Below, piece by piece: positions 2,214 through 18,695 of a stretch of 33,648 nucleotides of DNA; the first letter of the stretch is position 1; every line of letters begins with the position of its first letter. Origin of the DNA: a virus; the IMG/VR virus record IMGVR_UViG_3300006874_000055, positions 1 through 33,648 of that record; one strand, given 5' to 3'. The translations under genes and the position numbers were made by a program. The notes beneath the pieces are model-generated. The model ran no database searches. It worked only from the letters and a program-made list of their open reading frames with translations, and was not told the origin of the DNA.

Positions 2214-2954
2214 ATGAAAAGAAATAGACTTCCATTACTTGAAAATTACCACCAATACAACTTTGATCTTAGTGAAGATACGATAAAACTCCTAGCTGAA
2301 TCCCCAAGCACATTCCCAGACTTTATAGAGAAATACAATAGCCACTGGGGGTTATCTCATGAAGCTGACCACATCAATGTGACTTTCGCTGGAGACAATG
2401 CTAATCACAATCTTTTATCGCTCATATTGGAACGTTCGATTTATATGGGCAAGCATTGGGGAGTTAAACTGGATCACATAAGAACATGTTTGAAACTCTT
2501 GAACACACATTCAGATTGGGCAAGACTGGAAGGGGATTTACCTGAAATAAACCACATAGTTGGTGGTGGAAGATACAACTGTCTGCAAAATACCATCCTT
2601 TATTATCTCACTTTATTATCAAAAAAAGATGGTATCTCAAGAAAATACCTCACCACCATAAAGCTAGTATCAGAATTGTCAAGTGTGCGTGATTTTGAAA
2701 ATAAATGGACCAGATTCATGGAAATCAACTTCAAAAAAGATTCTGATTTGGGGCATTTTGGATTTTTCACCATGAGTCCATTATACCTGAGGGAATTCTT
2801 GTCTAAAATGGGTGTATCCCCATCTGTCATAGAAGATGTGGTGAAATGGGAGTGGAAGATTGGTAGTATGGCATATAGTAGGAGGAGAGCAACCCAACTA
2901 TCCAATGCACCAACAGGGTATGTGGAAAGAATGAATACCATAATAGGAATATGA
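2214..2954 (+). CDS. Tagged protein of unknown function, paralogue of 13433-14251
   Basis: This 246-aa protein begins MKRNRLPLLENYHQ, a variant of the RLPLFE leader found on several neighbours; the leader contains L-L-E, fitting the T4 prohead-protease pattern (I/L)-x-E. The C-terminal part (FENKW, then GHFGFF, then SKMGVSPSVIED) resembles that of the 272-aa minus-strand protein at 13433-14251 (FEQHW, FGFF, KDMGVSGNVISD), so the two appear to be diverged copies of one family. No catalytic motif, signal peptide or membrane segment is visible. The gene sits directly behind a TATAAATA late promoter, consistent with a virion-associated product. I do not recognise the family. An internal head protein is an inference from the leader. 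Confidence 0.85.
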   Translation: MKRNRLPLLENYHQYNFDLSEDTIKLLAESPSTFPDFIEKYNSHWGLSHEADHINVTFAGDNANHNLLSLILERSIYMGKHWGVKLDHIRTCLKLLNTHSDWARLEGDLPEINHIVGGGRYNCLQNTILYYLTLLSKKDGISRKYLTTIKLVSELSSVRDFENKWTRFMEINFKKDSDLGHFGFFTMSPLYLREFLSKMGVSPSVIEDVVKWEWKIGSMAYSRRRATQLSNAPTGYVERMNTIIGI

Positions 2955-3037
2955 ACATGTCACCAACCTTTAAACAATTCATAAAAGAACTAAAAGTGAT
3001 ACCCGTTGATGTCCAGTTGGATATGAATAGAATCTAG
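2951..3037 (+). CDS. Small 28-aa open frame
   Basis: This short frame begins MNMSPTFKQFIKELKVIP; its ATG overlaps the preceding stop (ATGA) and it ends two bases before the next ATG. The start resembles a leader (TFKQFIKE, an F-I-x-E pattern like the T4 capsid-targeting peptide), so it could be a truncated tagged gene. Tight coupling on both sides supports translation; no function can be assigned. Confidence 0.4.
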   Translation: MNMSPTFKQFIKELKVIPVDVQLDMNRI

Positions 3038-3039
3038 GA

Positions 3040-3525
3040 ATGAATATGCAAATTGATAGATACAGAACACCCTTGTATAAAATCGATGATCGTGTTCCCT
3101 CCATGGGAACCATCACTGACATTTATGGGAATCAATATGAGGTAGATGGCCAATGGTATGCCAAGTCTATAGTACACAATGCCTATTTTGACAGTCTCAT
3201 AAGGAACTCATCTTTCGAATCTCTCAGAGAAATCGTATCGCATTTATTTTCCATTGACCCAGATGAGGGTTACATGTCATTTGTCAGCAGGCTGCATAAT
3301 CATTGCACCGATGTTAACAAATACAACGATATGAGGGAAAGGTTCAAGATGCATGACAAGAAGGTGGTATCCAAATTCAGCTGGCTAATATCCAACGTGA
3401 CCTCTCTATTCAGTCGTTACAAAGACCATTTTCCCAGGACGATACGCGAGAACAGGCTACCATTATTTGAGCAATTCACAAAAGAAGGATATTCTGATCC
3501 TTCCAAAGATGAGTATAGACATTAG
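3040..3525 (+). CDS. Unknown protein with the leader tag at its C-terminal end (probable fusion)
   Basis: This 161-aa frame starts MNMQIDRYRTPLYKIDD and contains a small segment rich in Gly and aromatic residues (MGTITDIYGNQYEVDGQWY). Residues 137-146, ENRLPLFEQF, are the leader motif that begins other genes here, but in this case it lies near the C-terminus. After it the reading frame runs only 15 residues to a stop, while an acetyltransferase-like sequence continues in another frame (3509-3679). The simplest reading is that the original end of this gene was fused to the start of a tagged acetyltransferase gene, which then lost most of its body. Function of the N-terminal part is unknown. 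Confidence 0.65.
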   Translation: MNMQIDRYRTPLYKIDDRVPSMGTITDIYGNQYEVDGQWYAKSIVHNAYFDSLIRNSSFESLREIVSHLFSIDPDEGYMSFVSRLHNHCTDVNKYNDMRERFKMHDKKVVSKFSWLISNVTSLFSRYKDHFPRTIRENRLPLFEQFTKEGYSDPSKDEYRH

Positions 3526-3679
3526 AAAAGATAGGAGGAGACAAGGTATAGCGACTTCCATATATCAATGGGTAGAAGAATTAACCAAGGATACCGTGTA
3601 TCCATCCATGCCGCATTCAAGTGATGCCGAAGCATTCTGGAATCAGCCAGATAGAAGATTTGGTCCAAGTATAATTTGA
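3448..3679 (+). pseudogene. Remnant of a leader-tagged GNAT acetyltransferase
   Basis: The leader ENRLPLFEQF (3448-3477) is in one frame. The C-terminal end of a GNAT-like protein follows in another frame from the ATG at 3509: MSIDIRKDRRRQGIATSIY, then SSDAEAFW and RRFG. R-R-x-G-I-A is the acetyl-CoA pyrophosphate-binding motif A of the GNAT fold, and phage GNAT proteins often end in a similar Q/S-x-D-A-x-x-F-W...R-x-F-G. The front of the acetyltransferase domain is missing and the frames do not join, so this looks like a gene broken by deletion. A translated 56-aa peptide from 3509 is possible but would lack the full fold. Confidence 0.5.
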
Positions 3680-3745
3680 CCTATCGTCACACAAACGGAT
3701 GTGTTCAGACAGGCCACTATTCCACCTCGAAAATTGAGAATTGCC

Positions 3746-4129
3746 CTATGGCATTATGTCTGGATATTTGGCAGCAAAATCGGCAAAAGTCATTCTGGAG
3801 TTTGGTTTGAACAGTAAACTAAACTCTTCAAGCACACCCATATTCATTAATTCTTCTAGGAAGTAATCTTCTGATTTTAATACATCATCAACAGCTTGAG
3901 TGTATTCATCATAATCATCCATATCTTCTATATCATATTCAGCTTGGGCAGCAAAGAACGCTTTCGATGTGGGGTCGTTATGTGCTATTTCAACTGCCCT
4001 CCAAAAAACATCATTGTTGTTGGGGGACCATACACCACCAAGAAGTCTTATAAACTCTTTTCTGGCTTTGAAATAATCCTCTGATTCATTTTTGAAATTT
4101 TCAAATAGTGGTAATCTTTTATTTTTCAT
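3746..4129 (-). CDS. Leader-tagged small acidic protein
   Basis: This 127-aa protein starts MKNKRLPLFENFKNESEDYF, with the full RLPLFE leader followed by KNES. The rest is acidic and looks helical (EYDIEDMDDYDEYTQAVDDV), with no recognised motif or membrane segment. An exact TATAAATA lies 27 bases upstream on the same strand (4157-4164), so late expression is expected. The leader resembles the T4 internal-protein capsid-targeting peptide, with L-F-E at residues 7-9 of the product as a candidate prohead-protease site. Function is unknown; delivery with the genome is inference. Confidence 0.85.
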   Translation of the reverse strand: MKNKRLPLFENFKNESEDYFKARKEFIRLLGGVWSPNNNDVFWRAVEIAHNDPTSKAFFAAQAEYDIEDMDDYDEYTQAVDDVLKSEDYFLEELMNMGVLEEFSLLFKPNSRMTFADFAAKYPDIMP

Positions 4130-4156
4130 TTGTCGTTTTATGTTAACGGTTTATCC

Positions 4157-4164
4157 TATTTATA
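4157..4164 (-). promoter_or_regulatory. T4-type late promoter TATAAATA
   Basis: Reading on the minus strand, TATAAATA is followed by GGATAAACC and, after 27 bases in all, by the ATG of the tagged gene at 4129. The segment just before the start (ACGACAA) matches the leader before the tagged gene at 5940. Confidence 0.65.
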
Positions 4165-4242
4165 GATAATTCTTAAAATATATTGAACTGCCGCCATCTT
4201 TCTAATCATGGCAGGTCGCTGTTCCACCTCGGAGGGTGATTC

Positions 4243-5487
4243 TTACATATTAAAAGCATCTTTGTTTATCCAATGGGATACCATATCATCTTCCACCCAA
4301 ACATGTCCGAGAACTGTTTTGTGGCCATCAAGATATGTTCTTCTTTTATCTGCCAACCTGTAAATGTCAGACTTGTCGTAATCAGTTATCTTGATGTCTT
4401 GAAAATCATGGTGGTTTATTACCTTTTCCTCAAATTCCTCTGGGGACACAAGTTTGAATCTTGAATCGGACGGTAGGCTGCGTTGCACGTAGTTCAAATA
4501 TAGACCTCTTGTCCATGATTCGTACCTGCTGCCAGCAAAGCTTTCAAATAATGGTAGCCTGTTTTTCATTGCGGTGTTTTCTTTTTTCATCCTACCCAAT
4601 TTTATGGCTTTCAAAACTTCCCTAGAACCATTTTTCACACACCACTGCCTGGGTGTCATAAAGTCCAAGCTTTCTACTTTTTTACCAACAGATGCCCCCT
4701 TAGAAACCAAAAATTGTATTATGGACAATAATCTTTTTGTTTCATACACAGAAGATTTCACATGATCTGTGAATATGGTAGTAAGCTCCCCATTCACATC
4801 TTTAAATGTCTTGTTTATAAACGACCTGGATATTTTTAACGTTTTAAATAACCATTTATACGCTGCAAATGTGCATTGGTCATCGTTTGACAAAAAATCA
4901 AATTTTTCTTGATCTGACAGCTTAATGGATGCTCGTGGAAATTTTCTGAGAACCTTAATAGTGGCTGGAGTTCTCAGGGAAAATTTCATGTTAGTAAAAA
5001 ATGAGGGTATATTGGTGACATAAGGAGATATTGATTCTATGGTATCCCTATCAAAAAATATCATAGAATTAAAAAACCTATGATTAATTCCAGAATTTGT
5101 CATTCTTCCTTCATACAAAAACCTGGCCAGGGAGGCATACCCATAATACACCAGCACATAATGGTAAATAAATCCCCAAAAATCGCCTTCTATCTCTCCA
5201 TTCCAGCCCCTTGCTTTCATATTGGCGTACTGACCAAATCTTGCGTTGTTTGTGAGTGATGGTAGCCTGTGTAAAATCCAAGTGGTAAACCCGCTCTTCC
5301 TGGGTTTTAAAGAATCTACACTATGTAATTGTGATACAAATTTTTTGATCTCACCTTCGCTCATGGAAAGACCTATGAATTTTTTTCCACTTGGTGACGA
5401 CAACATACGCTCAGCCGCAGCATACATTTCCATGCCGTACGAATCCAATTTGCTGGTATCACCGCTCCACTTTCTTAAATCTATCAT
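4243..5487 (-). CDS. Two-module protein: ankyrin-like segment plus an internal leader tag
   Basis: In this 414-aa frame, residues 1-300 form one module and residues 307-414 a second that starts MKNRLPLFESF, the leader found at the start of other genes. Near residues 255-298 the pattern FLVSKGASVGKK followed by TPRQWCVKNGSREVLKAIK resembles an ankyrin repeat. The second module could be translated separately from the ATG at 4569, which has its own A-rich leader. No stop separates the modules, so this is either a fusion or an internal start. The gene starts 9 bases after the tagged gene at 5497-5940 and is probably co-transcribed with it. No enzymatic motif was seen. If the tag is a protease site, cleavage would separate the modules. 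Confidence 0.75.
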   Translation of the reverse strand: MIDLRKWSGDTSKLDSYGMEMYAAAERMLSSPSGKKFIGLSMSEGEIKKFVSQLHSVDSLKPRKSGFTTWILHRLPSLTNNARFGQYANMKARGWNGEIEGDFWGFIYHYVLVYYGYASLARFLYEGRMTNSGINHRFFNSMIFFDRDTIESISPYVTNIPSFFTNMKFSLRTPATIKVLRKFPRASIKLSDQEKFDFLSNDDQCTFAAYKWLFKTLKISRSFINKTFKDVNGELTTIFTDHVKSSVYETKRLLSIIQFLVSKGASVGKKVESLDFMTPRQWCVKNGSREVLKAIKLGRMKKENTAMKNRLPLFESFAGSRYESWTRGLYLNYVQRSLPSDSRFKLVSPEEFEEKVINHHDFQDIKITDYDKSDIYRLADKRRTYLDGHKTVLGHVWVEDDMVSHWINKDAFNM

Positions 5488-5496
5488 ATCTAAGTG

Positions 5497-5940
5497 TTAA
5501 AATGTTGGTCTCACCAAATCTGTGACCGGTTCTTCCCAATCTTCCCATTCATCAAGTTCATCTGGTTCTATATCACCAAACTCCATATGGGCAAATATAA
5601 GAGCTGCCATGGTTGATTTGAACATATTTTCTTCATTGCCCACCTTCACAAGTGTACCAGAGTAATAACCATCTTCTATATAAAGAAATATTTCTAATCT
5701 ATCAGACCTGTCCTCACTTTCGAGTTCGAATTTTAATGTTTTAAACCCATCTATCTTTTTGTCGTCTATAAATCTTACCTCTGAATCTAAAGCTATGTGA
5801 TGCCTGTTAATAGATTCAAGGTCATTTATGGCGTCCTTTTTCTTATATTTTTCATTCATTGACACACCTTTATTATGTGAAAATTCTTCAAATAATGGGA
5901 GTCTATTATTCTTTTTCATTTGTCGTTTATTCTTTTTCAT
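5497..5940 (-). CDS. Leader-tagged small acidic protein with duplicated start region
   Basis: This 147-aa protein begins MKKNKRQMKKNNRLPLFEEF and continues SHNKGVSMNE. Two in-frame ATGs exist (5940 and 5919) because a 21-base unit covering the A-rich leader and start codon is duplicated. The tag resembles that of the repeat protein at 17688-18695 (FEEFSHNKG against FEEMSHNSK). The body is acidic, ending in an Asp/Glu/Trp-rich stretch (DELDEWEDWEEPV). No known domain was recognised. A late-promoter-like AATAAATA is 13 bases upstream, overlapping the stop of the preceding gene. It is likely the first gene of a unit continuing into 4243-5487. Confidence 0.82.
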   Translation of the reverse strand: MKKNKRQMKKNNRLPLFEEFSHNKGVSMNEKYKKKDAINDLESINRHHIALDSEVRFIDDKKIDGFKTLKFELESEDRSDRLEIFLYIEDGYYSGTLVKVGNEENMFKSTMAALIFAHMEFGDIEPDELDEWEDWEEPVTDLVRPTF

Positions 5941-5947
5941 TTGTCGT
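5906..5947 (-). repeat. 21-base tandem repeat (2 copies) duplicating a start codon
   Basis: Two perfect copies, 5906-5926 and 5927-5947, read ACGACAAATGAAAAAGAATAA on the minus strand (one base over twenty is not exceeded if the final A is dropped). Each carries leader, ATG and Lys-Lys codons. The unit is a multiple of three, so the frame is kept and both ATGs can be used. Confidence 0.85.
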
Positions 5948-5952
5948 TTATT

Positions 5953-6693
5953 CTATTTATTGATGGTTATGTCCATCAGACGAATTTCTGGATTCTGTAA
6001 ATGAACCAAAAACTGTGGATAATCATGATACTCTCTGTTACATACATAAGCAGGCTCTATAAGAGGTTCCACCAATGGAGTATCTGACAGGAACTTTATC
6101 CAGTTGGATTGCTCTTCTCCATATTCAGAATCATGCAAAACCACTGCCCCATCCTGAATAAACATAAGAAAGGATTCAAAAATGGTGGGGTGATTATTAC
6201 TGATGAATGCGCACATCTGAGACCAGGGTACCACCACCTGAGCAACAACCCTTTTCCGATTGGTAAGAATTCGCTTGCAAATGGGATATTCCACACCGTC
6301 TATTGTGAGCTTGTGATCAGTGTGAAATAAAATGGAGCCATTTGAAGATTTCAGCCTCATTGTTTTCTCCCTCAAAAGCTCCGACATAACATTAGTTAAC
6401 CATTCTCTGTGATCCACCAGCTGGTAATAGATCATAGTTTTCACCTTTTTATCCACTGGCAGTAACCTCTTCCATCCTCTACCAGCAAATATGGTCTCCA
6501 GCAAAGCGACATATGCAGACATAATACCGCCTTTGAAATAGGCTTCAAGAAAGATATCTTCGAAGCCTTTCCTTGACATCATGTCAAAGATGGGGCTAAG
6601 TGCCCTCCTAGATGGTTCTGATGCAAGGGAAGTGTATCTCTTGAGGTCGGAGAGTATACCGTCACCATAAGAAGATATTGATTGTACTGTCAT
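5953..6693 (-). CDS. Unknown protein at the end of the replication operon
   Basis: This 246-aa protein starts MTVQSISSYGDGILSDLKRY. It lies 8 bases behind the UvsW-like helicase gene on the same strand and is probably co-transcribed with it. The sequence looks soluble, with no signal peptide, membrane segment or catalytic motif that I recognise. It lacks the RLPLFE leader. Its position suggests a DNA-metabolism or early/middle role, but that is only context. Confidence 0.8.
   Translation of the reverse strand: MTVQSISSYGDGILSDLKRYTSLASEPSRRALSPIFDMMSRKGFEDIFLEAYFKGGIMSAYVALLETIFAGRGWKRLLPVDKKVKTMIYYQLVDHREWLTNVMSELLREKTMRLKSSNGSILFHTDHKLTIDGVEYPICKRILTNRKRVVAQVVVPWSQMCAFISNNHPTIFESFLMFIQDGAVVLHDSEYGEEQSNWIKFLSDTPLVEPLIEPAYVCNREYHDYPQFLVHLQNPEIRLMDITINK
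5954..5961 (-). promoter_or_regulatory. Late-promoter-like AATAAATA box
   Basis: On the minus strand AATAAATA is followed by GAATAAAC and lies 13 bases before the ATG at 5940. It differs by one base from TATAAATA and shares the following GAATAAAC with the exact promoter at 2189. Confidence 0.5.
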
Positions 6694-6701
6694 GATGGAT
6701 T

Positions 6702-8270
6702 CTATAGTATTTGAAAACTTCCGTTGATAGATTGTGAGCCTTGCAGATTGACTTTGGTGGTCTTTCTGACATCATATCCTTTGGCTCTGCTCAGGCGTAT
6801 GCGTTCAGTCATATGCCTATAGGAGTAGTTGTTCATATCGAATCCGGTTTCATAACACCTCAGATCATCAGATATATCATAAACATCTGCCACATCTTTA
6901 CTTTCATGCAATCTGAGCAATCTGCCCAGGGTTTGACTGAACGTGTTGTAATCCTTTATGGATTCCGCAAGAACCGCATTATGAAGGTTGTTTATCGACT
7001 TACCAGTTGAATAGGTGGCATAGGTAGCAAACAGTATGGAGTCTGTATTATTCTCCAGATGCCTTTTTATGATTGCCCTATTTTCCTTAGGTGTTTGACC
7101 ATCGGCATAGAAAATGGACTTGTTGCACAAGGTGGCTGTGGCATCTTTCAGCCGCTTGCCGTATCCAGTTTTGATGTCAATGAAAAACACGATGGTGTTA
7201 CCCTGGAGCCTGGACAAAAACTCCGCAATCCAAAAGATGCGCTTCTGTGAAGTGCGTATGTTTTTCATCTCAATATGGAAGACATCTTTGTTGTCTATGT
7301 CGGCCCTGGATCGGAGTTGGGATAGCTTCAATTTGAAATCATCTGACGCATAATCCAGCAGCATCGGGTTATACCTTATGGGAGTGGCATATCCAAGGTC
7401 TGTGAGGTCTTTTTCAGTAAGAGTACATACCACAGGCCCAAAGTTGGCCAATAGGGTGTAATAATCGGCATTGTCTTCTGCGAGTATGGTTCCGGAAACC
7501 CCAGCCCTGGTGTTGACATTCTTCGTCTTGTATATGATATCTTTGATGCTTGCGGCTTTGGCGCGATGCACCTCATCCACATAAAGGCCACCAAAATGGA
7601 GGAAGAAATCATCATCAGCATTCTTCAACGTCTGGAAGTTACCTATGATCACGTTGGCATCATGCACTCCCCTATCCTTCTTTTTGATCTTGCCGTGAAT
7701 CATCTTGGGTTTTATGTGTCTCCATCTACCACAAGAATAGTCATCGAAATCATCATACATCTGGATAACAAGGTCTGAATCTGGACAAACAATGAGCACC
7801 TTATCATATCTTCCCTTATGGAGCAGGTAAGAGACCACCAAATAAAGAATAAGGGTTTTACCAGCATTCATGGAAAGATGACCAAGGCAATAGTTGTACT
7901 TGATTATCTTGTATGCTGCAGCAATCTGAACTGGCCTCGCATTATACTCATGATCTTTCATGAGTTCATTACAGAAGTTGGTAAAATCCTCCTTGCTTAT
8001 ATCATTGAACACCTCTTTCAATCCAACAAACTTGGCATCATAACCCAGTCTCTTGCAATGATCCATACAATCCTTCCAAAGTCCTACGGGTATGGCATTG
8101 CCACCCCTGGACATGAAGTTGATGACACCATCCCATCCTGGATTGCCTCTACTTCTGAATCGCCAGTTTTTTAGCTTCTTTTTGTAGTGGTAAGAAAGGG
8201 ATCGCTTTTGGTTTATGTCATCATAATTGATGACGAACTCATTTGAAGAAGGATCGTATGTGAGTATCAT
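6702..8270 (-). CDS. uvsW: UvsW-like superfamily 2 DNA helicase
   Basis: This 522-aa protein shows SF2 helicase motifs in order: a Q-motif-like RPVQIAAAY (about 112-120), Walker A MNAGKT (134-139), VLIVCPDSDLVIQ (motif Ia), DEVH (232-235, motif II), VSGTI (motif III, about 258-262) and QTLGRLLRLHES (motif VI). Length and layout fit T4 UvsW, an ATP-dependent helicase that unwinds R-loops and drives fork regression and branch migration in recombination-dependent replication. The N-terminal 100 residues would correspond to the UvsW DNA-binding domain. Its start overlaps the stop of the upstream UvsY-like gene by four bases. A generic phage DEAD/DEAH helicase is the alternative. Confidence 0.82.
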   Translation of the reverse strand: MILTYDPSSNEFVINYDDINQKRSLSYHYKKKLKNWRFRSRGNPGWDGVINFMSRGGNAIPVGLWKDCMDHCKRLGYDAKFVGLKEVFNDISKEDFTNFCNELMKDHEYNARPVQIAAAYKIIKYNYCLGHLSMNAGKTLILYLVVSYLLHKGRYDKVLIVCPDSDLVIQMYDDFDDYSCGRWRHIKPKMIHGKIKKKDRGVHDANVIIGNFQTLKNADDDFFLHFGGLYVDEVHRAKAASIKDIIYKTKNVNTRAGVSGTILAEDNADYYTLLANFGPVVCTLTEKDLTDLGYATPIRYNPMLLDYASDDFKLKLSQLRSRADIDNKDVFHIEMKNIRTSQKRIFWIAEFLSRLQGNTIVFFIDIKTGYGKRLKDATATLCNKSIFYADGQTPKENRAIIKRHLENNTDSILFATYATYSTGKSINNLHNAVLAESIKDYNTFSQTLGRLLRLHESKDVADVYDISDDLRCYETGFDMNNYSYRHMTERIRLSRAKGYDVRKTTKVNLQGSQSINGSFQIL

Positions 8271-8779
8271 CTCGACAAGTCAATTTTAGATTGAACACCG
8301 TATATCATCTTATCAACAGTGGCAAGAGAACCATTCAAATGCTCTATTTGTCTATTAAGGTCATCAATAAGACCATCTGTGCTTGCTAAGTGTATATCCA
8401 GATACGCATCCCTATCCAGGGTGGTGGGTTTGCGTTTCTTTTCCTCATCCTTGAAGAATGATGCGTAGAAACTGTTTATGGCCTGAGATTTTTGGGTTTT
8501 CCTTTTTCTCAAAATACCAGACAAAGTTCTGCTGAACGAGTATCTGTGGGCTATGATCTTTTGTCTGAGTTGATATAGCTTTGGGAGACCGTCATTCAGC
8601 TTGTCAGTAGAGGAGAACATGGTTGATAACTGCTTCACCTCTGCATTAAGCCTGGAGGCTTGCACTGCCATTTTATCGGCAGGTGATTGCTTCTTAGTTT
8701 CTTCTTGTGGCTTCTCTTTCTCCGGCTCAGAGAAGAGTGAATTCATCATCGCCTTTTCTTTTTCGTTTTGGTTTGACAT
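8267..8779 (-). CDS. Putative UvsY-like recombination mediator
   Basis: This 170-aa protein has a Glu/Lys-rich, probably disordered first 40 residues, then a helical, basic region. Small phage recombination mediators of the UvsY type have the order seen here: a basic helical segment (RTLSGILRKRKTQKSQ), a D-A-Y-L region, then a long C-terminal helix (DDLNRQIEHLNGSLATVDKMI). UvsY loads the UvsX recombinase onto gp32-coated DNA. The gene sits between primase and UvsW in the replication operon and overlaps both neighbours' frames (8727-8779 and 8267-8270). Sequence similarity is weak, so the name rests mostly on architecture and context. Confidence 0.45.
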   Translation of the reverse strand: MSNQNEKEKAMMNSLFSEPEKEKPQEETKKQSPADKMAVQASRLNAEVKQLSTMFSSTDKLNDGLPKLYQLRQKIIAHRYSFSRTLSGILRKRKTQKSQAINSFYASFFKDEEKKRKPTTLDRDAYLDIHLASTDGLIDDLNRQIEHLNGSLATVDKMIYGVQSKIDLSR

Positions 8780-8963
8780 GTTCTATGACTACTGTTTTTT
8801 CTTTTTCTACCACTTCATCAATTTTGAAATCCCCAATTTCAACCTCCCCTTCATGCGTATCGAATTTAACAACACCTTTCCTCTTATACACCTTCAATTC
8901 TTTCAATACATCAGAGAAGAATTCTTCTTCCAATTTGTCTATTTCATCTTGGTTTATACCCAT
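8727..8963 (-). CDS. Small highly charged protein of unknown function
   Basis: This 78-aa protein starts MGINQDEIDKLEEEFF and is dominated by Glu, Lys and Val, ending in a basic patch PKRKRKG. Its start overlaps the end of the primase gene by 10 bases and its end overlaps the UvsY-like gene by 53 bases, implying translational coupling in the replication operon. No domain was recognised. The charge pattern suggests a small DNA- or protein-binding accessory factor; this is inference only. Confidence 0.7.
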   Translation of the reverse strand: MGINQDEIDKLEEEFFSDVLKELKVYKRKGVVKFDTHEGEVEIGDFKIDEVVEKEKTVVIEHVKPKRKRKGDDEFTLL

Positions 8964-11284: not shown

Positions 11285-11340
11285 TACTTCAAATTAATTA
11301 CAAATGTTACAAATACTTCAAATTAAACAACTTACTTCAA
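11285..11340 (-). promoter_or_regulatory. Repeated AT-rich leader of the gp32 gene, possible autoregulatory operator
   Basis: The 5' leader, read on the minus strand, contains TTGAAGTA three times (plus coordinates 11285-11292, 11314-11321, 11333-11340); the last ends four bases before the ATG at 11281. It has almost no G/C and little potential for structure. T4 gp32 represses its own translation by binding an unstructured A/U-rich leader, so this could be the equivalent operator. Binding is inferred. Confidence 0.4.
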
Positions 11341-11466
11341 CTAACTTTACATTAACGATATTCAACAAGATTCTAATTCAATTTATTTCTTAAATACCAA
11401 AAAGAAACCAAGTATGTGTGGTTTCCCTACAATATTTATAATGCACGTACCATTAAACAGTTTCAA

Positions 11467-12459
11467 ATGGGAAAAGAATTCGAAGATATGCTGAAAAACA
11501 CCATCGGAGACCAAGACCTTGAGTTTCCAGATGCGCAGCAGGAAGATAACAAACCCACAGACCTGGGAAAGGTTGAAACCTTGGCAGATAAAAGACGAGC
11601 TAAGGTGTCCAAATCCGCAGAAGAAGTGGATAAAGTGGGGTTTCAACCAGTACCAAGGGAGATACTCGCATCCAAGGGAGTTTTCTACCCTACCGATCTG
11701 CGTATCTCTGCAAGGCCAGCCACCACCAGAGAGATCATCCACTATTCAGGTATGGATGAGACTGATTTCAAGGACATCGGTACCAAGATTCAGTCTCTTG
11801 TTGATTCTTGCACCAGGATTTACATGAAAGGCAATAGAACGAATTGTAAAGACCTCTTGGAGGTTGACAGATTGTTCCTATTCTTCCTGATAAGGGATTA
11901 CACGTTTTCCACCAAGGAAAACATTCTCTATCATCATGCCAATTGCCCACATTGTGGAACTGTGGAAAAAATAGAGATAACCAGTAACACCCTGGGTTTC
12001 TCCAACATCAACCAAAAGCTGGTTGACAAATGGGACAAGGAACAGAACGCATTCGTGTTGGATCATCCCAAACTTCCCAACATGCCCCTGTTGTACCCTC
12101 CCACCATCGGAGTCATCAACTGGATTTTTGACTATGTACAGAAGCAGGAACTCAAGAAGAGACGTGGAGAAGGTGGCTATTATGACACTGCATTCCTCAC
12201 CCATCTGCAGTTCCTCGTATCGGATTGGAGACATCTGAGCGAAAGTCATCTTGAGAAGATAAACGAAGCCTATGTCAAGTTGGATCACAACCACATAGCA
12301 GCAATAAGAATGTTTGCGAAAAAGTTGAATATTGGTGTTGAACCTAAAATGGAAAGGAGGTGTGGTTCATGCGATGGGCAGTATGAATCGCTTGTTCGAT
12401 TTCCAGATGGATGGGCAACTCTTTTCGACGATCAAGATATCCTTGGAGAATTATTTTGA
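11467..12459 (+). CDS. Baseplate hub protein, T4 gp26-like family
   Basis: This 330-aa protein from ATG 11467 starts MGKEFEDMLKNTIGDQD; an upstream ATG at 11416 lies in the promoter-like region and is less likely. The central part (VPREILASKGVFYPTDLRI, then DLLEVDRLFLFFLIRDYTF, then HANCPHCGT) matches the layout of the T4 baseplate hub family: P-S/A-x-G-x-x-Y start, a D-R-L-x-L-F-x-L-I-R helix and a CxxC knuckle (Cys160, Cys163). A second CxxC (RRCGSCDG) near residue 313 may complete a zinc site. The protein would act in building the central hub of the baseplate. Its 3' end overlaps the next gene by 86 bases. Confidence 0.65.
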   Translation: MGKEFEDMLKNTIGDQDLEFPDAQQEDNKPTDLGKVETLADKRRAKVSKSAEEVDKVGFQPVPREILASKGVFYPTDLRISARPATTREIIHYSGMDETDFKDIGTKIQSLVDSCTRIYMKGNRTNCKDLLEVDRLFLFFLIRDYTFSTKENILYHHANCPHCGTVEKIEITSNTLGFSNINQKLVDKWDKEQNAFVLDHPKLPNMPLLYPPTIGVINWIFDYVQKQELKKRRGEGGYYDTAFLTHLQFLVSDWRHLSESHLEKINEAYVKLDHNHIAAIRMFAKKLNIGVEPKMERRCGSCDGQYESLVRFPDGWATLFDDQDILGELF

Positions 12460-12697
12460 TGTCCAAAACACCCTGTGGATAAAATCCGGCATTTCACCGG
12501 ATCAGTATCGTGATCTCCCATTTTACGAACTCCAGTATCTCCTGGACAAGTTCAGGGAGTTGAACGACAAACAGCAGGAAAATAAAGATGGAAGAAGTGG
12601 AAACGACTTCAACATGGATCGTCATATGCAAAGCATGCAACGCATGTTGAAGTCTAATCAGGTAAAAATGCCTAAACTACCAAAGGGATTGGGTTAA
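12374..12697 (+). CDS. Small protein coupled to the gp26-like gene
   Basis: From ATG 12374 (107 aa) it starts MGSMNRLFDFQMDGQLFS. Its first 86 bases overlap the gp26-like gene in another frame. AGGAGG at 12355-12360 could serve as a Shine-Dalgarno sequence, although 13 bases from the ATG is long. ATGs at 12383 and 12407 are alternatives. The recognisable part is GISPDQYRDLPFYELQYLLDKF, a soluble helical segment; the tail is polar and ends KLPKGLG. Small genes of this kind often follow baseplate hub genes in T4-like phages as assembly factors, but I cannot name it. The stop overlaps the stop of the converging gene. Confidence 0.65.
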   Translation: MGSMNRLFDFQMDGQLFSTIKISLENYFDVQNTLWIKSGISPDQYRDLPFYELQYLLDKFRELNDKQQENKDGRSGNDFNMDRHMQSMQRMLKSNQVKMPKLPKGLG

Positions 12698-12717
12698 CCT
12701 TCCCAATGCTTTTTCAC
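12678..12717. repeat. 40-base direct repeat, copy 1
   Basis: The copies at 12678-12717 and 13382-13421 match at 38 of 40 positions. They flank the tagged gene 12694-13281 in the same orientation. This copy contains the stop codon of that gene (TAA) where the other copy has CAA. Confidence 0.9.
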
Positions 12718-13281
12718 CAGGGCGAACATACCAGCAAAATCACCTGCATCTAGCATGCTTTTCAGCGACATGATCTCTTCTTTTGAGTAATCCCATGGCA
12801 AACTTTCAACGAAGAATTCACTTGCCTCATCATAAACACCTTCCCCTTCATAATCTGATGGGTGGGCATCATTGAGGTATGCTATCATGCCAACAGCATT
12901 TTTCTCATCTTTGTGCATGGTGTCAACAAACTTGGTGAGCATGTCGTCAAAAAATTCTCCACCAAGCTCCCTATAAAGATTCTCATTCACCCTTCTTCTC
13001 TTGGAGCGTTTGCTGAATTCTTCGAAAAGAGGCAATCTACCTTTCCTTACGGTGGATTTTTTGCTGGTTTTCTTTTCATCCACCCCACCTTTGGCATCTT
13101 CTTCGGTACAATTGGACAAAAAGTCGTACAGCTCTTCCTCACCAACACCCTGGTCTTTCCAGTAGTTGGCGCGATCTTTGCTGAAAAACTCAATATCTTC
13201 TTCATCAGATTCCCATGGTGATCCCACACCAGACCAATCTTCGAATTCTTTTATGATTTCTGCTTTTAATTTGTTGTTCAT
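12694..13281 (-). CDS. Acidic protein with an internal leader tag
   Basis: This 195-aa protein starts MNNKLKAEIIKEFEDWSG. An acidic N-terminal region is followed at residues 80-90 by KGRLPLFEEFS and then KRSKRRRVNEN, so the tag is internal and ends in V-N-E. The part after the tag (about 95 residues) is helical and acidic (ELGGEFFDDMLTKFVDT, ALVKKHWEG). If the tag is a processing site, maturation would remove the first 87 or 100 residues. The stop arises inside a 40-base repeat whose second copy reads through (HWEGQPNPFGKL), suggesting that this gene has a shortened C-terminus. Function unknown. Confidence 0.78.
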   Translation of the reverse strand: MNNKLKAEIIKEFEDWSGVGSPWESDEEDIEFFSKDRANYWKDQGVGEEELYDFLSNCTEEDAKGGVDEKKTSKKSTVRKGRLPLFEEFSKRSKRRRVNENLYRELGGEFFDDMLTKFVDTMHKDEKNAVGMIAYLNDAHPSDYEGEGVYDEASEFFVESLPWDYSKEEIMSLKSMLDAGDFAGMFALVKKHWEG

Positions 13282-13286
13282 GACTA

Positions 13287-13430
13287 TTATGATTTGAATG
13301 TTATCTTTTTATCATACCCTTTGCGCGCCACAAGTTTTTCCTTGTCTATCATGGTGGTTTTATTGCCGCCATACTTTAGCTTACCAAAGGGATTGGGTTG
13401 ACCTTCCCAATGTTTTTTCACTTTGTGCAA
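13287..13430 (-). pseudogene. Basic 44-47-aa fragment carrying the read-through C-terminus of the neighbouring gene
   Basis: The minus frame, from TTG 13430 or GTG 13421, reads VKKHWEGQPNPFGKL and then KYGGNKTTMIDKEKLVARKG, ending ITFKS. Its first residues VKKHWEG are the last residues of the gene at 12694-13281, where CAA has become a stop. It therefore looks like the 3' end of a related, longer gene left behind by recombination between the 40-base repeats. A real small basic protein is possible, but no convincing start codon is present. Confidence 0.4.
13382..13421. repeat. 40-base direct repeat, copy 2
   Basis: Second copy of the repeat at 12678-12717 (mismatches at 13400 and 13414), 704 bases away, in the same orientation. 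Confidence 0.9.
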
Positions 13431-13432
13431 GT

Positions 13433-14251
13433 TTAACTATTTTTTATTTTTCTGTATATGTCAGAGATGACATTTCCGGAAACTCCCATGTCTTTCAAAA
13501 GATTCCTCACTTTGTCTTTTGGTATACCAAAAAATCCAAACTTAGGACCATTACCATAGGCAAAATTGTCAAACACCATCTCCCAGTGTTGTTCAAACTC
13601 CGATACACCAAATAGTTTGGCAAGTTCAATCACAAACGGGAATCTTGTTCCTGGTAACCTTTTATTAGAGACATGGTATTCAGCAATAAATCCGAGCACT
13701 GGACCTCTCTTGTCAACTTCTTTGACATAAACATCTTTTGCTTTCCTAACATCCACATGCTTCTTGAATACACCTAATGCCTCCATGGCAGAGGTCTTGT
13801 CTGAAAATGAAGCATGGTCCAATAAAAGATCAAGTATATTAGATGTTTCCATGGAATTCATCCAGGATTTATGAGAAGCCTCCAGGAAGGGCAACTTGTT
13901 GACTTTAACATAATTCTTAAAGTATTGGCCTGCAACCCCCTCATACTGTATCAGCTTGTTCCATATATGCCAGCTGGTAAAATAATCAAAGCTTACAGGC
14001 TGGCCATTAACCAATATGGCCGTGCTGACAACATGACCATCTTCCAACATTTTCCTCATGAGGGCTTCTATAACACCCCCAGAAAATAAGTTGACAACGA
14101 AACTCCTGGCTTCTTTCTCATTCACATCCGCACCAGCTGCTTTCAAATCCCTAACAAAGAGATCATAGTCAAAATACTTATTCAGGTCCGAAAATTTGGT
14201 GGATTCATTTATGATTGTGAAATCAAAGAACCTTTTTAATCTATTGCTCAT
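13433..14251 (-). CDS. Tagged protein (MSNRL...NES leader), paralogue of 2214-2954
   Basis: This 272-aa protein begins MSNRLKRFFDFTIINES, with I-N-E-S at residues 14-17. The 114-aa protein at 14725-15069 begins MSNRLQKFGQDSSVNES, with V-N-E-S at the same positions, so a common leader is clear. The C-terminal region (FEQHW, FGFF, KDMGVSGNVISD) matches the tagged 246-aa protein at 2214-2954. An exact late promoter TATAAATA is 19 bases upstream. Like that protein, it has no recognised catalytic motif. A role as an internal head protein cut after I-N-E is inferred from the leader only. Confidence 0.85.
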   Translation of the reverse strand: MSNRLKRFFDFTIINESTKFSDLNKYFDYDLFVRDLKAAGADVNEKEARSFVVNLFSGGVIEALMRKMLEDGHVVSTAILVNGQPVSFDYFTSWHIWNKLIQYEGVAGQYFKNYVKVNKLPFLEASHKSWMNSMETSNILDLLLDHASFSDKTSAMEALGVFKKHVDVRKAKDVYVKEVDKRGPVLGFIAEYHVSNKRLPGTRFPFVIELAKLFGVSEFEQHWEMVFDNFAYGNGPKFGFFGIPKDKVRNLLKDMGVSGNVISDIYRKIKNS

Positions 14252-14270
14252 GATACATTAAATTTTATTA

Positions 14271-14278
14271 TATTTATA
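14271..14278 (-). promoter_or_regulatory. T4-type late promoter TATAAATA
   Basis: Exact TATAAATA on the minus strand, 19 bases before the ATG at 14251, preceded by the 7-base repeats and terminator of the upstream gene. Confidence 0.7.
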
Positions 14279-14280
14279 AC

Positions 14281-14308
14281 AAATAACAAATAACAAATAA
14301 CAAATAAC
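14281..14308. repeat. 7-base tandem repeat AAATAAC x4
   Basis: Four perfect AAATAAC units lie between a terminator hairpin and the late promoter of 13433-14251. Possible slippage tract; no function assigned. Confidence 0.9.
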
Positions 14309-14336
14309 AAAAAGGGTCATCCCGCAGGACAACCCT
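14308..14336 (-). terminator. Rho-independent terminator after 14370-14672
   Basis: Read on the minus strand, AGGGT...ACCCT (with an inner TCC/GGA pairing) forms a hairpin over 14336-14313 followed directly by five T residues. It lies 34 bases behind the stop of the membrane/basic protein gene and just before the next promoter, a sensible place to end that transcript. Confidence 0.7.
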
Positions 14337-14369
14337 CAAGAAAGCACCACTTAATCCATGACCAGTTAG

Positions 14370-14672
14370 CTACTTTCCTCGCTTCTTTGATTTCTTATTA
14401 CTCTGGTGGCGCTGACCACCTTTCTTCTGATTGTTTTGCTTTTTCCCCTGACGGTTATTGCCCTTGCCACCTCCCCTGCTTTGCTGTTTCTTTCCCTGCT
14501 TAGGCTGATTGCCTCTATCGGGTGGTAGCTGAGGAATGGAACCATCACCATTCAATTCTTTCCAATTCTTGTGATTCCTCTTCATGGCGTCAATGAATAG
14601 CCATATTCCAACAAAAATGGCCGCAAACATAAGAATGGTGGGATCGGTGAAAGATTCTGTGTTGACTTCCAT
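14370..14672 (-). CDS. Single-membrane-span protein with a long basic tail
   Basis: This 100-aa protein starts MEVNTESFTDPTILMF. Residues about 11-30 (DPTILMFAAIFVGIWLFIDA) form one membrane helix. Residues 55-100 are almost entirely Lys, Arg, Gln, Asn and Gly (GKKQQSRGGGKGNNRQGKK). Such a tail could bind nucleic acid or acidic lipids. The positive-inside rule predicts that the tail faces the cytoplasm. The gene follows the tagged 114-aa gene on the same strand and is followed by a terminator. A holin-like or membrane-tethered role is conceivable, but there is no specific evidence. Confidence 0.72.
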   Translation of the reverse strand: MEVNTESFTDPTILMFAAIFVGIWLFIDAMKRNHKNWKELNGDGSIPQLPPDRGNQPKQGKKQQSRGGGKGNNRQGKKQNNQKKGGQRHQSNKKSKKRGK

Positions 14673-14724
14673 GGTGGTTGTTTTTTATTCTAAGACCATC
14701 GCCACCGCATGGTATCAAATCTTA

Positions 14725-15069
14725 TTATCTGCCAGTCCTCACCTCATGGATTTCCATGGCAGTGTCGAACCTATCAACATACTGGAGCCTAAGTATTTGC
14801 CTAGCAAAGTCGTAAACTGGCCCACGGTCTATATTATCACCATGTTCATCTTCCACGACAGCAGTTCCCATGCCTGCATAAAGTTTATGGTCAGGGTGTA
14901 TTTGCTTCTCAATGGCTTTATTGATGAGACCTTCATACCTCTCAACCATGTTGTCTATAGCAGACTGTAGTTCTCCCTCCAAAGCTTTTATCTCCTGCAG
15001 GTTGTAATACTGTCCAATGGATTCATTCACTGATGAATCTTGTCCGAATTTTTGAAGTCTATTACTCAT
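14725..15069 (-). CDS. Small tagged protein (MSNRL...NES leader)
   Basis: This 114-aa protein begins MSNRLQKFGQDSSVNES and shares MSNRL and N-E-S at the same positions with 13433-14251. The body is helical and charged (LQEIKALEGELQSAIDNMVERYEGL) with a short loop GMGTAVVEDEHGD. It starts 4 bases after the stop of the tape-measure-like gene and is probably co-transcribed with it. No known domain. Coiled-coil content together with the leader would fit a small head-packaged or tail-assembly protein; undecided. Confidence 0.8.
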   Translation of the reverse strand: MSNRLQKFGQDSSVNESIGQYYNLQEIKALEGELQSAIDNMVERYEGLINKAIEKQIHPDHKLYAGMGTAVVEDEHGDNIDRGPVYDFARQILRLQYVDRFDTAMEIHEVRTGR

Positions 15070-15073
15070 TGGT

Positions 15074-17647
15074 TTATATGTTTGTTTCTTTTACTACTAA
15101 TGTGCCGTTTAATGTGGAATCGATGGCTCTGAGAGTGGATAACTGAGCCTGCATGACCTGCATTTGCTGACCAATGGCATTCATCATAACATTCATCATT
15201 TGCCTCAACTCCTCATCCTTTTTTATTTGGTTGAGCTTTTCCTTGGGAACACCCTCAATGGTCTTCTCAACTATATCTTTCTTTTCCCTACGGCTTTTCG
15301 AATCATTGAATTTCTCCCCAAAATCGAAAGCAGATGCTCCGGTCTGGAGGGAAACATTAGCACCTTTCCTCAAACCATCAACATCGATGGAAGCCAAGTC
15401 TCTCAGAGTGGAACCCCATATGCTGAATGCATCAATGGATGACTTCGGCATGTCCTTCATGTATTCCACATGATCTTCCATGTGTTCATTGAGTTCACCA
15501 AAGACATCAACCAACTCCCGCATTGGATCACGATATTCCACAATGGCATCCAGCCTCTTTTCCCATTTACCCATGGCCTCAGAGAGGATTCCAGTGGATT
15601 CTGCAATTCCAACGATGGTATTGGCTGTTTGCTCAGGATCATCAACAGATGAGAAGTCTTTCACGAATGTTGATATGGAACCAAAGGATTCTGAAAGGTC
15701 TGATATGATCTCAACACCCCTGGTCACATCCCCATCGCTCCATGGGAATATGCCCTCAGATTCGCGATCTTTCTTACCGACCGCAGCAAAGGATTCTGGT
15801 ATCACAGCCAGGATGCCTTTTATGTTAGCTGCAGCAGATTGGATGGATTCTTCTGTTATCCCCTTCTCACCACCTTTCACCCAGGCCAGGACTCCCTCAG
15901 AAAGAGAGGAAAGAGTATCACCAAGTTTTCTTGTGGAATGAATACCAAGCTCGATATCACCTTTTGAGAATGGTGATTTGAACTCCATACCAAATAGAGA
16001 ATAAGTCTTCGTATCTGAACCCCTTTCTCTTTCACCAATGATTGCGAAAACCCCAGGTATGACATTGAGAACTTTGGTTATGTTGTTCTTGATGGTATTG
16101 AGATCATCCTCCGTTATGTCCATCTTCTTCCAGGCGGTGATACCTTTGGCAAGCCGATGAAGGTTTTTGCCCATCTTCATGGTGGAATCGATGCCCCGCT
16201 CCACATTGTTGGAACCAACACTGAACCCAAAGAGCTTGCTCATGCCGTCCGGTGATCCTGCCACAGCAAACGCTTGACTCATTCCAAAGATGGTGTGCTT
16301 GAGAAGTTCTGAATCTTTCTCTCTCCAACCATCGGAGTTTTTACTCCATTCCTTTATACCTATGGATAGCGTACCAAGTGCGGCTCCCATTCCTAGGATG
16401 ACAGGAATCTTAGCAGGCAACAAGAGAGCATCTTTGAGACTCACATTCTGGAACGAATTGGCAAAACCTTCCACCACAGACTGGATGGCGTATCTCATGG
16501 TATCTGCATCCGATCTGGTGAAATTCACCTTAGCAAACTCGCTAACACCTTTAGCAACAACCCAGAGCGCACCACCTATGCCAGCTATGGCCAAAGCTCC
16601 CGCACCAATCATAAGAGGAACTGGTCCTGCCCCTGCTAGCGTGAATGCCAACCCTAGGCCACCGATCAGTGCTGGTACTTTATAGATGAGGTCTGAGTTC
16701 TCCTGGAGCTTAACATCCTCTGCGAATATCTTGAATCCTTTGGCCACCACCTGGGTAGCAAAGCCTGTGCCTGCAACAGCAAGGGCACCCATAAGCATTG
16801 GCTTCATGAACTTGCCTGCTATCCCATATACTAATGCGGTGCCGCCAATGGTAGCTAATACTAATAAACTACTTTTAGCATCTGGCATAGCCTCTGCAGA
16901 TTTCGAGAATGAATAGGCAAACAATGCGGTGGATATGGAGACACCCGCCAATGCCAGTGACCCCCTGTTTATGTGCTTTGACTGGCGGCCAAATATGGAG
17001 AAGACGGTCGCTGTTCCGGCAACGGCCAGTAAAGTCAACGCAACATCGTCATACCTCGATGCGAGTAATATGGATGCACCAGTCATACCAAGTGCAAAAA
17101 GAGCAACACCAACTCCCATTTTCTGGATGCCGCCAGCAAAACGTTCGAAATTCTCTGCGGATTCCTCATCGAAGAATCGGTTGGCAACAAAGCCCAGAGT
17201 AGCTGTAGCGGCCCCAAGAGCAAGGGAACCAGGAAGCGAGAGGATAAGGAGTGGTGTTGCTAAAGCCATTTTAAGGCCAAACTTCAAAGAATTATCAGCA
17301 ATTGATGCTAAGCTATCAAGCTTCTCAAGAGTGCCACCCACATCAAACTCATTAAATGATTCGCCAATCTTGCCGACCATTTGGCTGAATTTGATGGAAA
17401 AGTTCTCGAAGTTATCTGTTTTTATGTCTCCCTTGCTTATCTTCTCTGAGAGAGAAGTTATCTTATCTAAAAAATCGCTGCTTACACTCAAGTCTTCTGG
17501 TTGCTGCTGTTTCTCAGCATTCATCTTGCCTTCCAGACCTCCGATTAGAGACTCGGTTGCAGCACCCATCTTAGAATTGATGGACTGTATGAGCATTTCG
17601 ATTCTCCCGAGAGTATCTGCAGACTGTTTTATGAAGATTTCAGACAA
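15074..17647 (-). CDS. Large hydrophobic virion protein, tape-measure-like
   Basis: The frame gives about 857 aa from TTG 17647 or 840 aa from ATG 17596 (GGGAG seven bases upstream). It can be extended upstream only through the 27-base repeats of the divergent gene, which yields a repetitive, unlikely protein. The N-terminal 120 residues are helical. Residues about 130-380 contain many Ala/Gly-rich membrane-like helices (LATPLLILSLPGSLALGAAT, GAGALAIAGIGGALWVVAKG). The C-terminal half has repeated amphipathic segments (GIDSTMKMGKNLHRLAKGI, GIHSTRKLGDTLSSLSEGV, GVEIISDLSESFGSISTFV). This mix is typical of tail tape-measure proteins, which set tail length and enter the host membrane. Small tail-linked genes surround it. 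A phage membrane protein is the alternative. Confidence 0.55.
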   Translation of the reverse strand: MSEIFIKQSADTLGRIEMLIQSINSKMGAATESLIGGLEGKMNAEKQQQPEDLSVSSDFLDKITSLSEKISKGDIKTDNFENFSIKFSQMVGKIGESFNEFDVGGTLEKLDSLASIADNSLKFGLKMALATPLLILSLPGSLALGAATATLGFVANRFFDEESAENFERFAGGIQKMGVGVALFALGMTGASILLASRYDDVALTLLAVAGTATVFSIFGRQSKHINRGSLALAGVSISTALFAYSFSKSAEAMPDAKSSLLVLATIGGTALVYGIAGKFMKPMLMGALAVAGTGFATQVVAKGFKIFAEDVKLQENSDLIYKVPALIGGLGLAFTLAGAGPVPLMIGAGALAIAGIGGALWVVAKGVSEFAKVNFTRSDADTMRYAIQSVVEGFANSFQNVSLKDALLLPAKIPVILGMGAALGTLSIGIKEWSKNSDGWREKDSELLKHTIFGMSQAFAVAGSPDGMSKLFGFSVGSNNVERGIDSTMKMGKNLHRLAKGITAWKKMDITEDDLNTIKNNITKVLNVIPGVFAIIGERERGSDTKTYSLFGMEFKSPFSKGDIELGIHSTRKLGDTLSSLSEGVLAWVKGGEKGITEESIQSAAANIKGILAVIPESFAAVGKKDRESEGIFPWSDGDVTRGVEIISDLSESFGSISTFVKDFSSVDDPEQTANTIVGIAESTGILSEAMGKWEKRLDAIVEYRDPMRELVDVFGELNEHMEDHVEYMKDMPKSSIDAFSIWGSTLRDLASIDVDGLRKGANVSLQTGASAFDFGEKFNDSKSRREKKDIVEKTIEGVPKEKLNQIKKDEELRQMMNVMMNAIGQQMQVMQAQLSTLRAIDSTLNGTLVVKETNI

Positions 17648-17661
17648 GCCGTTTGTTTCTT

Positions 17662-17676
17662 TTATATATAAGATAA
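17662..17676. promoter_or_regulatory. Two-way promoter-like TATATATA region
   Basis: A TTATATATAAG core lies between the divergent starts at 17647 (minus) and 17688 (plus). On each strand it is followed by an A-rich stretch like those after the late promoters. It is not an exact TATAAATA, so the call is tentative. Confidence 0.35.
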
Positions 17677-17782
17677 AAAGCGTATCAATGAAAAATAACA
17701 AAAAAAGCGTATCAATGAAAAATAACAAAAAAAGCGTATCAATGAAAAATAACAAAAAAAGCGTATCAATGAAAAATAACAA
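17675..17782 (+). repeat. 27-base tandem repeat, 4 perfect copies, each with an in-frame start codon
   Basis: Units 17675-17701, 17702-17728, 17729-17755 and 17756-17782 each contain GCGTATCAATGAAAAATAAC. The repeat is nine codons long and encodes S-V-S-M-K-N-N-K-K. It gives four in-frame ATGs at 17688, 17715, 17742 and 17769 ahead of the RLPLFEEM tag. Confidence 0.95.
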
Positions 17783-18695
17783 AAGACTCCCATTATTCGA
17801 AGAAATGAGCCACAATTCCAAAGCACATGAAGGAATTGTTAAGATATTGAATAGCGCCAGTGAACGTATAAGAGACCCCCATGATATAAGGCGCATATTT
17901 GATACTTTGAAAAATTATCCTGAGGATGAATCGACTAAGTTTTTGGAAGGGACATACAGTGTTGATGCTAACGGTAACGTATCCGTAGACGGCAATGTGA
18001 ATTTATATTTATTAGGAGGCGCTAACATAATACCATTCAATTTTTTAGAAGTGACTGGTAATTTTAATGTTAGTTATTCTAACATACGTTCTTTGGAAGG
18101 TGCTCCTGAAAGGGTGGGTGGAAGTTTTGACTGTTCTGCCTGTAACCTGACACTTCTGGAATACTCTCCCAAAGAAGTGGGAGATTTTAATTGTTCTAAA
18201 AATATGCTCACTTCATTGAAAGGTGCTCCTGAAAGGGTGGGTGGCGATTTTTTGTGTTACAGCAACAAGTTGGTGTCTTTAGAAGGTTGCCCTATGAATG
18301 TGTCCGGATTTTTTAATTGTTCTCAAAATATGCTCACTTCATTGAAAGGTGCTCCTGAAAGGGTGGGTGGCGGTTTTAACTGTTCTCAGAACCAACTACG
18401 CACCCTGGAAGGTTCTCCCAAAAAAGTTGGTGGCTTTAATTGTTCTAGGAATATGCTCACTTCATTGAAAGGTGCTCCTGAAAGGGTGGGTGGCGGTTTT
18501 AACTGTTCTCAGAACCAACTACGCACCCTGGAAGGTTCTCCCAAAAAAGTTGGTGACAGATATGATTGTTCTAGGAATAACATAAGGTATATGAAAGATA
18601 TGGACTATGACATAACTGTTGATGGTAAATTCATATACAGTTTCAATCCAATGGATGTTTTTTCTAATATAAAAGCAAATGATTACATTTCATAA
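17688..18695 (+). CDS. Leader-tagged leucine-rich-like repeat protein
   Basis: From the first ATG (17688) the protein has 335 aa; from the last (17769), 308 aa beginning MKNNKRLPLFEEMSHNSK. A helical linker is followed by at least eight repeats of about 20 residues, with the pattern L-x-x-L-(E/K)-G-(A/S)-P-(E/K)-x-V-G-G-x-F-(N/D)-C-S-x-N (for example SLKGAPERVGGGFNCSQN). This is a leucine-rich-type solenoid common in large phages and in some bacterial proteins, usually used for binding. Two repeat pairs are nearly identical in DNA, indicating recent internal duplication. The RLPLFE tag suggests it belongs to the same group as its tagged neighbours. Four tandem starts are described separately. 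No enzymatic domain. Confidence 0.82.
   Translation: MKNNKKSVSMKNNKKSVSMKNNKKSVSMKNNKRLPLFEEMSHNSKAHEGIVKILNSASERIRDPHDIRRIFDTLKNYPEDESTKFLEGTYSVDANGNVSVDGNVNLYLLGGANIIPFNFLEVTGNFNVSYSNIRSLEGAPERVGGSFDCSACNLTLLEYSPKEVGDFNCSKNMLTSLKGAPERVGGDFLCYSNKLVSLEGCPMNVSGFFNCSQNMLTSLKGAPERVGGGFNCSQNQLRTLEGSPKKVGGFNCSRNMLTSLKGAPERVGGGFNCSQNQLRTLEGSPKKVGDRYDCSRNNIRYMKDMDYDITVDGKFIYSFNPMDVFSNIKANDYIS

Follow-up and report, generated by a model that had tools for sequence, protein, structure and literature searches.

The described phage systems that come closest to the leader reported here include: (i) the capsid-targeting sequence (CTS) of the T4 internal proteins, in which residues 4 and 7 target, residues 8 and 10 process, and packaging persists when the cut is blocked (PMC9026906), (ii) T4 Alt, the precedent for a packaged and injected ADP-ribosyltransferase (ART) (PMC5512222), (iii) phage polyvalent proteins, which are giant multidomain proteins for which delivery with the DNA is proposed (PMC5512222), and (iv) the N-terminal propeptides of the phiKZ-like phage SPN3US, which are cut after E by a gp21-related prohead protease (PMC5694885). 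In T4 and its close relatives, shared leaders are already known on injected proteins that are otherwise unrelated, and the CTS has been suggested in reviews as a general protein-packaging route of T4-like phages (PMC9026906; PMC12373910). Injected head proteins can act as anti-defence factors, as Ip1-3 of T4 show (PMC12373910). As read from AF158101, T4 IPII and IPIII start MKTYQEFIAE/A (slashes mark known or candidate cut sites).

The RLPLFExF leader described here is, on sequence comparison, a variant of the T4 CTS, i.e., a dialect of a known signal and not an undescribed kind of leader. Similarly to the CTS of IPI-IPIII, it is short and N-terminal, is carried by unrelated, probably late-made proteins, has an aromatic pair spaced three apart, and has exact-register relatives in the same genome that end INE/S. 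By contrast with the T4 CTS, the main form in this phage has a greater length and opens with MK..RLPL, few copies retain the E of the T4 cut position, the likely cut site ([IV]NE) is either missing or found at a variable distance, and the cargo genes are more numerous.

The window is the entire stretch of DNA analysed, the 33,648-base virus record IMGVR_UViG_3300006874_000055, which is a genome fragment. T4-like markers of the window include a terminase large subunit, UvsW-type helicase, primase, gp32-type SSB, and baseplate-hub and head-closure proteins. The IMG/VR contig IMGVR_UViG_3300025840_000087 is 100% identical to the window over 14,167 bases and extends 24.4 kb to its left, giving a scaffold of 58 kb in total. 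The S77 protease and gp23 families have no match on the window contig or contig G001 (58 kb covered), and the gene for the scaffold protein was not found within the 58 kb. A capsid contig (L241) from the same sample as G001 was dropped as a different phage (34% vs 42% GC), and pattern matches in L001 and L012 were dropped as lying outside a leader context.

Other features of this genome are noted in their own right. The terminase ORF (280-2193) begins within an intein (block CAGDHRVF, end YYTNGILSHN followed by S), and no N-terminal half was found, either upstream of it or in the rest of the 58 kb; the terminase homologue of LR756500 (W04 196122-194236) also begins inside an intein. The arrangement resembles an atypically split intein of the AceL-TerL kind. 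In L004, a zinc-motif protein (13731-14369) adjoining the split terminase has repeated 'RYG.dnP..s.EVQ'-like units, similar sequences lie beside the capsid cluster of LR756500, and these proteins are perhaps homing endonucleases. Two fibre-like neighbours (28168-29196 and 29280-32036) have their first ~55 residues in common (M[AS]TEVRTSLNFL[KQ]NQLL...) and both match phrog_8309, with a shared attachment end and different bodies. A 279-aa protein (20769-21608) contains an extended acidic repeat (DDEDDEDDE), which corresponds in the DNA to a 9-bp tandem repeat at 21124-21168.

The RLPL[FL]E motif occurs in seven copies in the window, compared with 0.02 expected (100 dinucleotide shuffles), and all seven lie where the preliminary description had placed them. 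An ATG is found shortly before five of these (starts 2214, 4129, 4569, 5940/5919 and 17769). The leader copies and related leaders of the window are as follows:

2214..2954, plus strand: leader protein of 246 aa, MKRNRLPLLENYHQYNFDLSE..., motif codons 2226-2243
3454..3525, plus strand: leader copy RLPLFEQFTKEGYSDPSK at the end of ORF 3040-3525 near the stop, motif codons 3454-3471
3746..4129, minus strand: leader protein of 127 aa, MKNKRLPLFENFKNE/SED..., E at the T4 cut position, motif codons 4100-4117
4243..4569, minus strand: leader protein MKNRLPLFESFAG... with its own ATG inside ORF 4243-5487, motif codons 4543-4560
5497..5940, minus strand: leader protein of 147 aa, MKKNKRQMKKNNRLPLFEEFSHNKGVSMNE/K..., motif codons 5887-5904
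12694..13281, minus strand: 195-aa ORF with an internal leader at residue 82, motif codons 13021-13038
12982..13038, minus strand: this internal leader and putative cut site, RLPLFEEFSKRSKRRRVNE/N, with RRRVNE after the leader
13433..14251, minus strand: related leader MSNRLKRFFDFTIINE/S, 272 aa
14725..15069, minus strand: possible related leader MSNRLQKFGQDSSVNE/S, 114 aa, without the second aromatic
17769..18695, plus strand: leader protein MKNNKRLPLFEEM... with leucine-rich repeats, 308 aa, motif codons 17784-17801
18827..19333, plus strand: weak candidate for a related leader, MTIPTFEKFSE; its protein has an ART-like stretch, FLSTxxxEAxxYG

The 2214 protein has no Pfam or PHROG match, and the 17769 protein is 335 aa when read from the first of four tandem starts (17688). 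Three details of the earlier account are revised: the 4569 copy, taken to be internal, has its own ATG (with an alternative start possible at 4590), the 13038 copy is residue 82 of its ORF with RRRVNE following, and the 3454 copy is in a broken frame near the end of its ORF. Because this latter copy is near a stop and is directly followed by an out-of-frame ORF (3467-3679) with a GNAT-like stretch (DRRRQGIATSIYQWVEEL), it is probably the remnant of a decayed leader gene, of which the acetyltransferase-like fragment would be the remains; the GNAT-like ORF itself has no Pfam match. Counting against a targeting role, two copies lie inside ORFs and a third is in the broken frame.

The bodies of the leader proteins are unrelated by blastp, the only exception being two leucine-rich-repeat (LRR) proteins, which bears out the earlier statement that the downstream sequences are mostly different; a short leader shared at the N-termini of proteins that are otherwise unrelated is the pattern of a T4-type CTS. 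Such repeats could instead be a product of events at the DNA level, in which a recombination cassette or slippage copies the start of a gene and the peptide is functionless. Tandem duplications at 5906-5958 (21 bp x 2.5) and 17668-17784 (27 bp x 4.3) are consistent with this origin, as in each of them the start codon of a leader gene is repeated together with its first residues to give several possible starts, and the 5887 and 17784 cores resemble each other closely at the DNA level. However, the differing codon pairs among ten strict core copies are 119 synonymous vs 27 nonsynonymous, the unrelated DNA flanking the cores is only 31-43% identical, and distant phages show the same peptide pattern. 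As the core codons vary synonymously while the flanks are dissimilar, selection acts on the peptide; a DNA-level origin is already disfavoured by the codon pattern and is hardly credible.

T4 late promoters are of the TATAAATA type. Late-type boxes, defined as sequences 18-45 nt upstream of the start that agree with TATAAATA in at least 7 of 8 positions, are found at eight of 14 leader genes vs seven of 56 other genes (p=0.001) and at 2% of random positions, with the 4569 leader start entered in this comparison at a non-ATG position and scored negative. The boxes include:

2189..2196, plus strand: late-type box TATAAATA, 25 nt before the 2214 ATG
4157..4164, minus strand: late-type box TATAAATA, 35 nt before the 4129 ATG
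5954..5961, minus strand: late-type box AATAAATA, 21 nt before the 5940 ATG
14271-14278: perfect late-type box of the 14251 gene
17663: late-type box TATATATA of the 17769 leader gene

Since the boxes upstream are of the T4 late promoter type, the leader genes are probably expressed late. A heptamer, ATAACAA, present in five copies (plus-strand letters) at 14276-14311, abuts the box of the 14251 gene.

The preliminary description had proposed searching the rest of the genome and other phages for the motif. Both searches were productive: further copies and relatives occur on the 58-kb scaffold (ILPLFEDF, RIPLFEEF, RLPLFEEL, RLQKFEFF...VNE, LPKFSEFINE and LKTFSEFINE), and leader dialects are found in huge phages and on contig G003. 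These leaders include:

Extension contig: V-NILPLFEDF, on an ART
Extension contig: MKRRIPLFEEF, on an LRR protein
Extension contig: MKNKNRLPLFEEL...VVNE and MKKKRLQKFEFF...SVNE
Extension contig: T4-register leaders MGLPKFSEFINE/SS and MLKTFSEFINE/SS
Contig G003: MKQRISNTLEQFINE, MKQRVLNLDQFIAE and MEQRIPLFEDFIIE
LR756500 (W04): MKYIKEYEEFILE, MKYILEYEEFLLE and MKFLKSYEEFLNE
LR756502 (W02): MKYLKIFEDF and MKHLKLFESF

The same-genome leaders KTFSEFINE/S and PKFSEFINE/S share the register of T4 (KTYQEFIAE/A), and contig G003 bridges the forms, with RIPLFEDFIIE beside RISTLDEFINE and RVLNLDQFIAE. In this alignment, the F-E-x-F of RLPLFExF corresponds to the Y4..F7 targeting pair of T4, and the cut would come later. 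Aromatic or large hydrophobic residues occupy T4 positions 4 and 7 (F-E-x-F/L/M in strict copies and L-E-x-Y in the 2214 copy). In the [IL]-x-E register (positions 8-10), the E is in place at 4129 (FKNE) and in two extension leaders (FINE); in the other leaders the candidate cut site is later than the T4 register or absent. A downstream NE is present in four of the ten strict copies (background 6.7%, P=0.003), three as hydrophobic-N-E and one as KNE, while generic [ILV]xE is not enriched downstream of the same ten (P=0.36). Cleavage directly after LFE, as initially proposed, is off-register because F-E-x-F aligns with T4 residues 4-7, which function in targeting and not cutting, and the bridging leaders place it likewise; it was rejected as the main site and is kept only as a possibility where no later site exists. 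The later V/I-N-E cut of the same proposal fits the register, but hydrophobic-N-E is found in only three of the ten strict copies, and certain leaders may remain uncut. The SPN3US propeptides are likewise N-terminal, but several exceed 100 residues and are cut at AxE (PMC5694885), whereas the leader of the window phage is about 10-25 residues, with [IV]NE as the likely site.

The ILPLFEDF protein is an ART-PolyVal (Pfam PF18760, E=2.9e-19, above cut-off), while ART-like proteins of the relatives, with leaders MRRIRLFEEFNYNE and MRIIKLFEEFTYND, match PF18760 below the family cut-off. Like T4 Alt, this is an ART that is preceded by a leader and encoded by a T4-like phage; however, it has no Alt-type ART domain and instead matches ART-PolyVal, a different ART clade (PMC5512222). 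The ART-PolyVal domain is shared with phage polyvalent proteins, from which the ILPLFEDF protein differs in being a single small domain with a leader. An AlphaFold model of this ART made without an alignment was set aside (pLDDT 46), the 18827 protein was rejected as a second ART after profile comparison gave only a weak 22-residue match, and profile comparison of the LKTFSEFINE protein gave no convincing match. Among 65 leader proteins, which were picked by pattern and are expected to include some false positives, the domains are LRR (six), PPK2, metallopeptidase, PNK phosphatase, ART, methyltransferase, SET, nucleotidyltransferase, HNH and ATP-grasp. The cargo varies between genomes.

The closest helicases are in the huge-phage records LR756500, LR756502, LR756504 and LR745206 (29-31% identity), and LR756500 has the best terminase match among the genomes compared (37%). 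These huge phages have leader dialects of their own on dozens of genes, and alignment of the 65 leader proteins yields MKxIxxYExFxxE as the sole common stretch. The 7-mer [YF]x[EKDQNS][YFH][ILV]xE is concentrated at protein N-termini, beginning within the first 13 residues 19 times in W04 and 14 times in W02, vs 0.64 expected in each. The gp21-type protease sought since the preliminary description is absent from the 58 kb of the window phage but has a counterpart in these relatives, where S77 domains adjoin gp23-type capsid genes within ORFs of ~630-810 aa. In the huge-phage capsid protein, an E stands where T4 E65 probably aligns; the site is readable in 149 of 160 contigs, of which 135 combine L or I at P3 with N at P2, and P1' is mostly N or S. 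The resulting motif, mostly [IL]NE/[NS] and observed in the relatives only, is by its position the putative capsid cut site. In about 30 contigs, a gene 53-101 bp after the capsid gene encodes a protein that starts MKRVKSYNQFIAE/S or close.

This placement of a leader protein directly after the capsid gene suggests another reading, in which the leader loads the head, but the proteins are structural or core components that stay or are cut up instead of being delivered to the host as effectors. This role would suit the effect of T4 IPIII on head assembly (PMC9026906) and the presence of the motif in scaffold proteins. By contrast, the cargo differs between genomes and includes enzymes (ART, PPK2, SET, methyltransferase and HNH), and the two LRR proteins and the ART are not structural-looking; a purely structural role is considered unlikely.

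In the huge phages, the protease ORF runs on into tandem 14-residue repeats (e.g., NIAYSEYIAENLDK), about ten per protease-scaffold protein, with the core YSEY(I/L)AE. This core, Y-S-E-Y-I-A-E, has the same pattern as Y-Q-E-F-I-A-E of T4, and 11 of the 36 matches to the above 7-mer in W02 are in the protease-scaffold protein. Scaffold repeat matches number 11 in W02, 11 in W05, 14 in W03 and 10 in L241, with only three in W04; where an ORF immediately precedes the capsid gene (136 contigs), it has 10 or 11 in most cases. The repeat region is predicted with modest confidence to be a single long helix (pLDDT 64.5). These repeats come from relatives that are ~30-37% identical to the window phage in shared proteins, rather than from the window phage itself. 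Vibrio phage SRILMA (L006, PP083314.1; L080 10725-10982) has leaders MKFKQFLAES and MKFKEYLNE and a small ORF, MNFKEYLEDRQDVNE, between protease and tail-tube-like genes, a position at which T4 has prohead core genes.

The leader might instead dock elsewhere than the prohead core, e.g., at the tail, portal or an intracellular phage compartment, given that the protease and scaffold of the window phage were not found in the 58 kb and many copies are without a clear cut site. This is quite improbable, as same-genome leaders are in the T4 internal-protein register and the motif is also in the scaffold of the relatives.

Capsid loading of the leader proteins is well supported by inference, and RLPLFExF is likely this phage's version of the CTS, serving in head loading, cleavage where a site exists and delivery of cargo to the next host. 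The capsid-targeting idea of the preliminary description thereby gains from the T4-register leaders, the G003 bridge, the late boxes, the ART cargo, and the S77 domains and capsid site of the relatives, and is weakened by the lack of a protease on the 58 kb. In the proposed mechanism, the leader proteins would be made late in infection, and the two aromatics of the leader (F..F) would bind the prohead core, by which unrelated proteins would be incorporated into the head. An S77 prohead protease would remove the leader where [ILV]xE follows, often as V/I-N-E, and the freed cargo, of which one would be an ART like T4 Alt, would stay in the head, enter the next host with the DNA and act there. 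Because the protease-scaffold repeats of huge phages carry the same motif, the leader may correspond to a single scaffold repeat carried by the cargo. The scaffold would be a chain of ~ten 14-residue helical repeats with the core [YF]-x-x-[YF]-[ILV]-x-E, with which the leader would co-assemble via its aromatic face, and the protease on the same scaffold would cut the cargo at [ILV]xE. That the leader of T4-like huge phages is a scaffold-repeat copy, by which cargo poses as a repeat and is freed by the same protease, is given slightly more credence than doubt. No account of the huge-phage leader dialects or the scaffold-repeat match was found in the open-access PMC literature searched; the 'conserved N-terminal motif' of RaK2 was rejected as a precedent, as it is an unrelated tail spike motif.

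If the proposed role is correct, the leader would be readable across T4-like and huge phages, such that injected proteins could be listed from sequence, with the leader dialect of each genome marking its whole set. Among the proteins of the scanned set are ARTs, methyltransferases, nucleases and LRR proteins as well as a polyphosphate kinase and a SET-domain protein. The match to the scaffold repeat, if true, would tell what the ten-residue signal of T4 binds.
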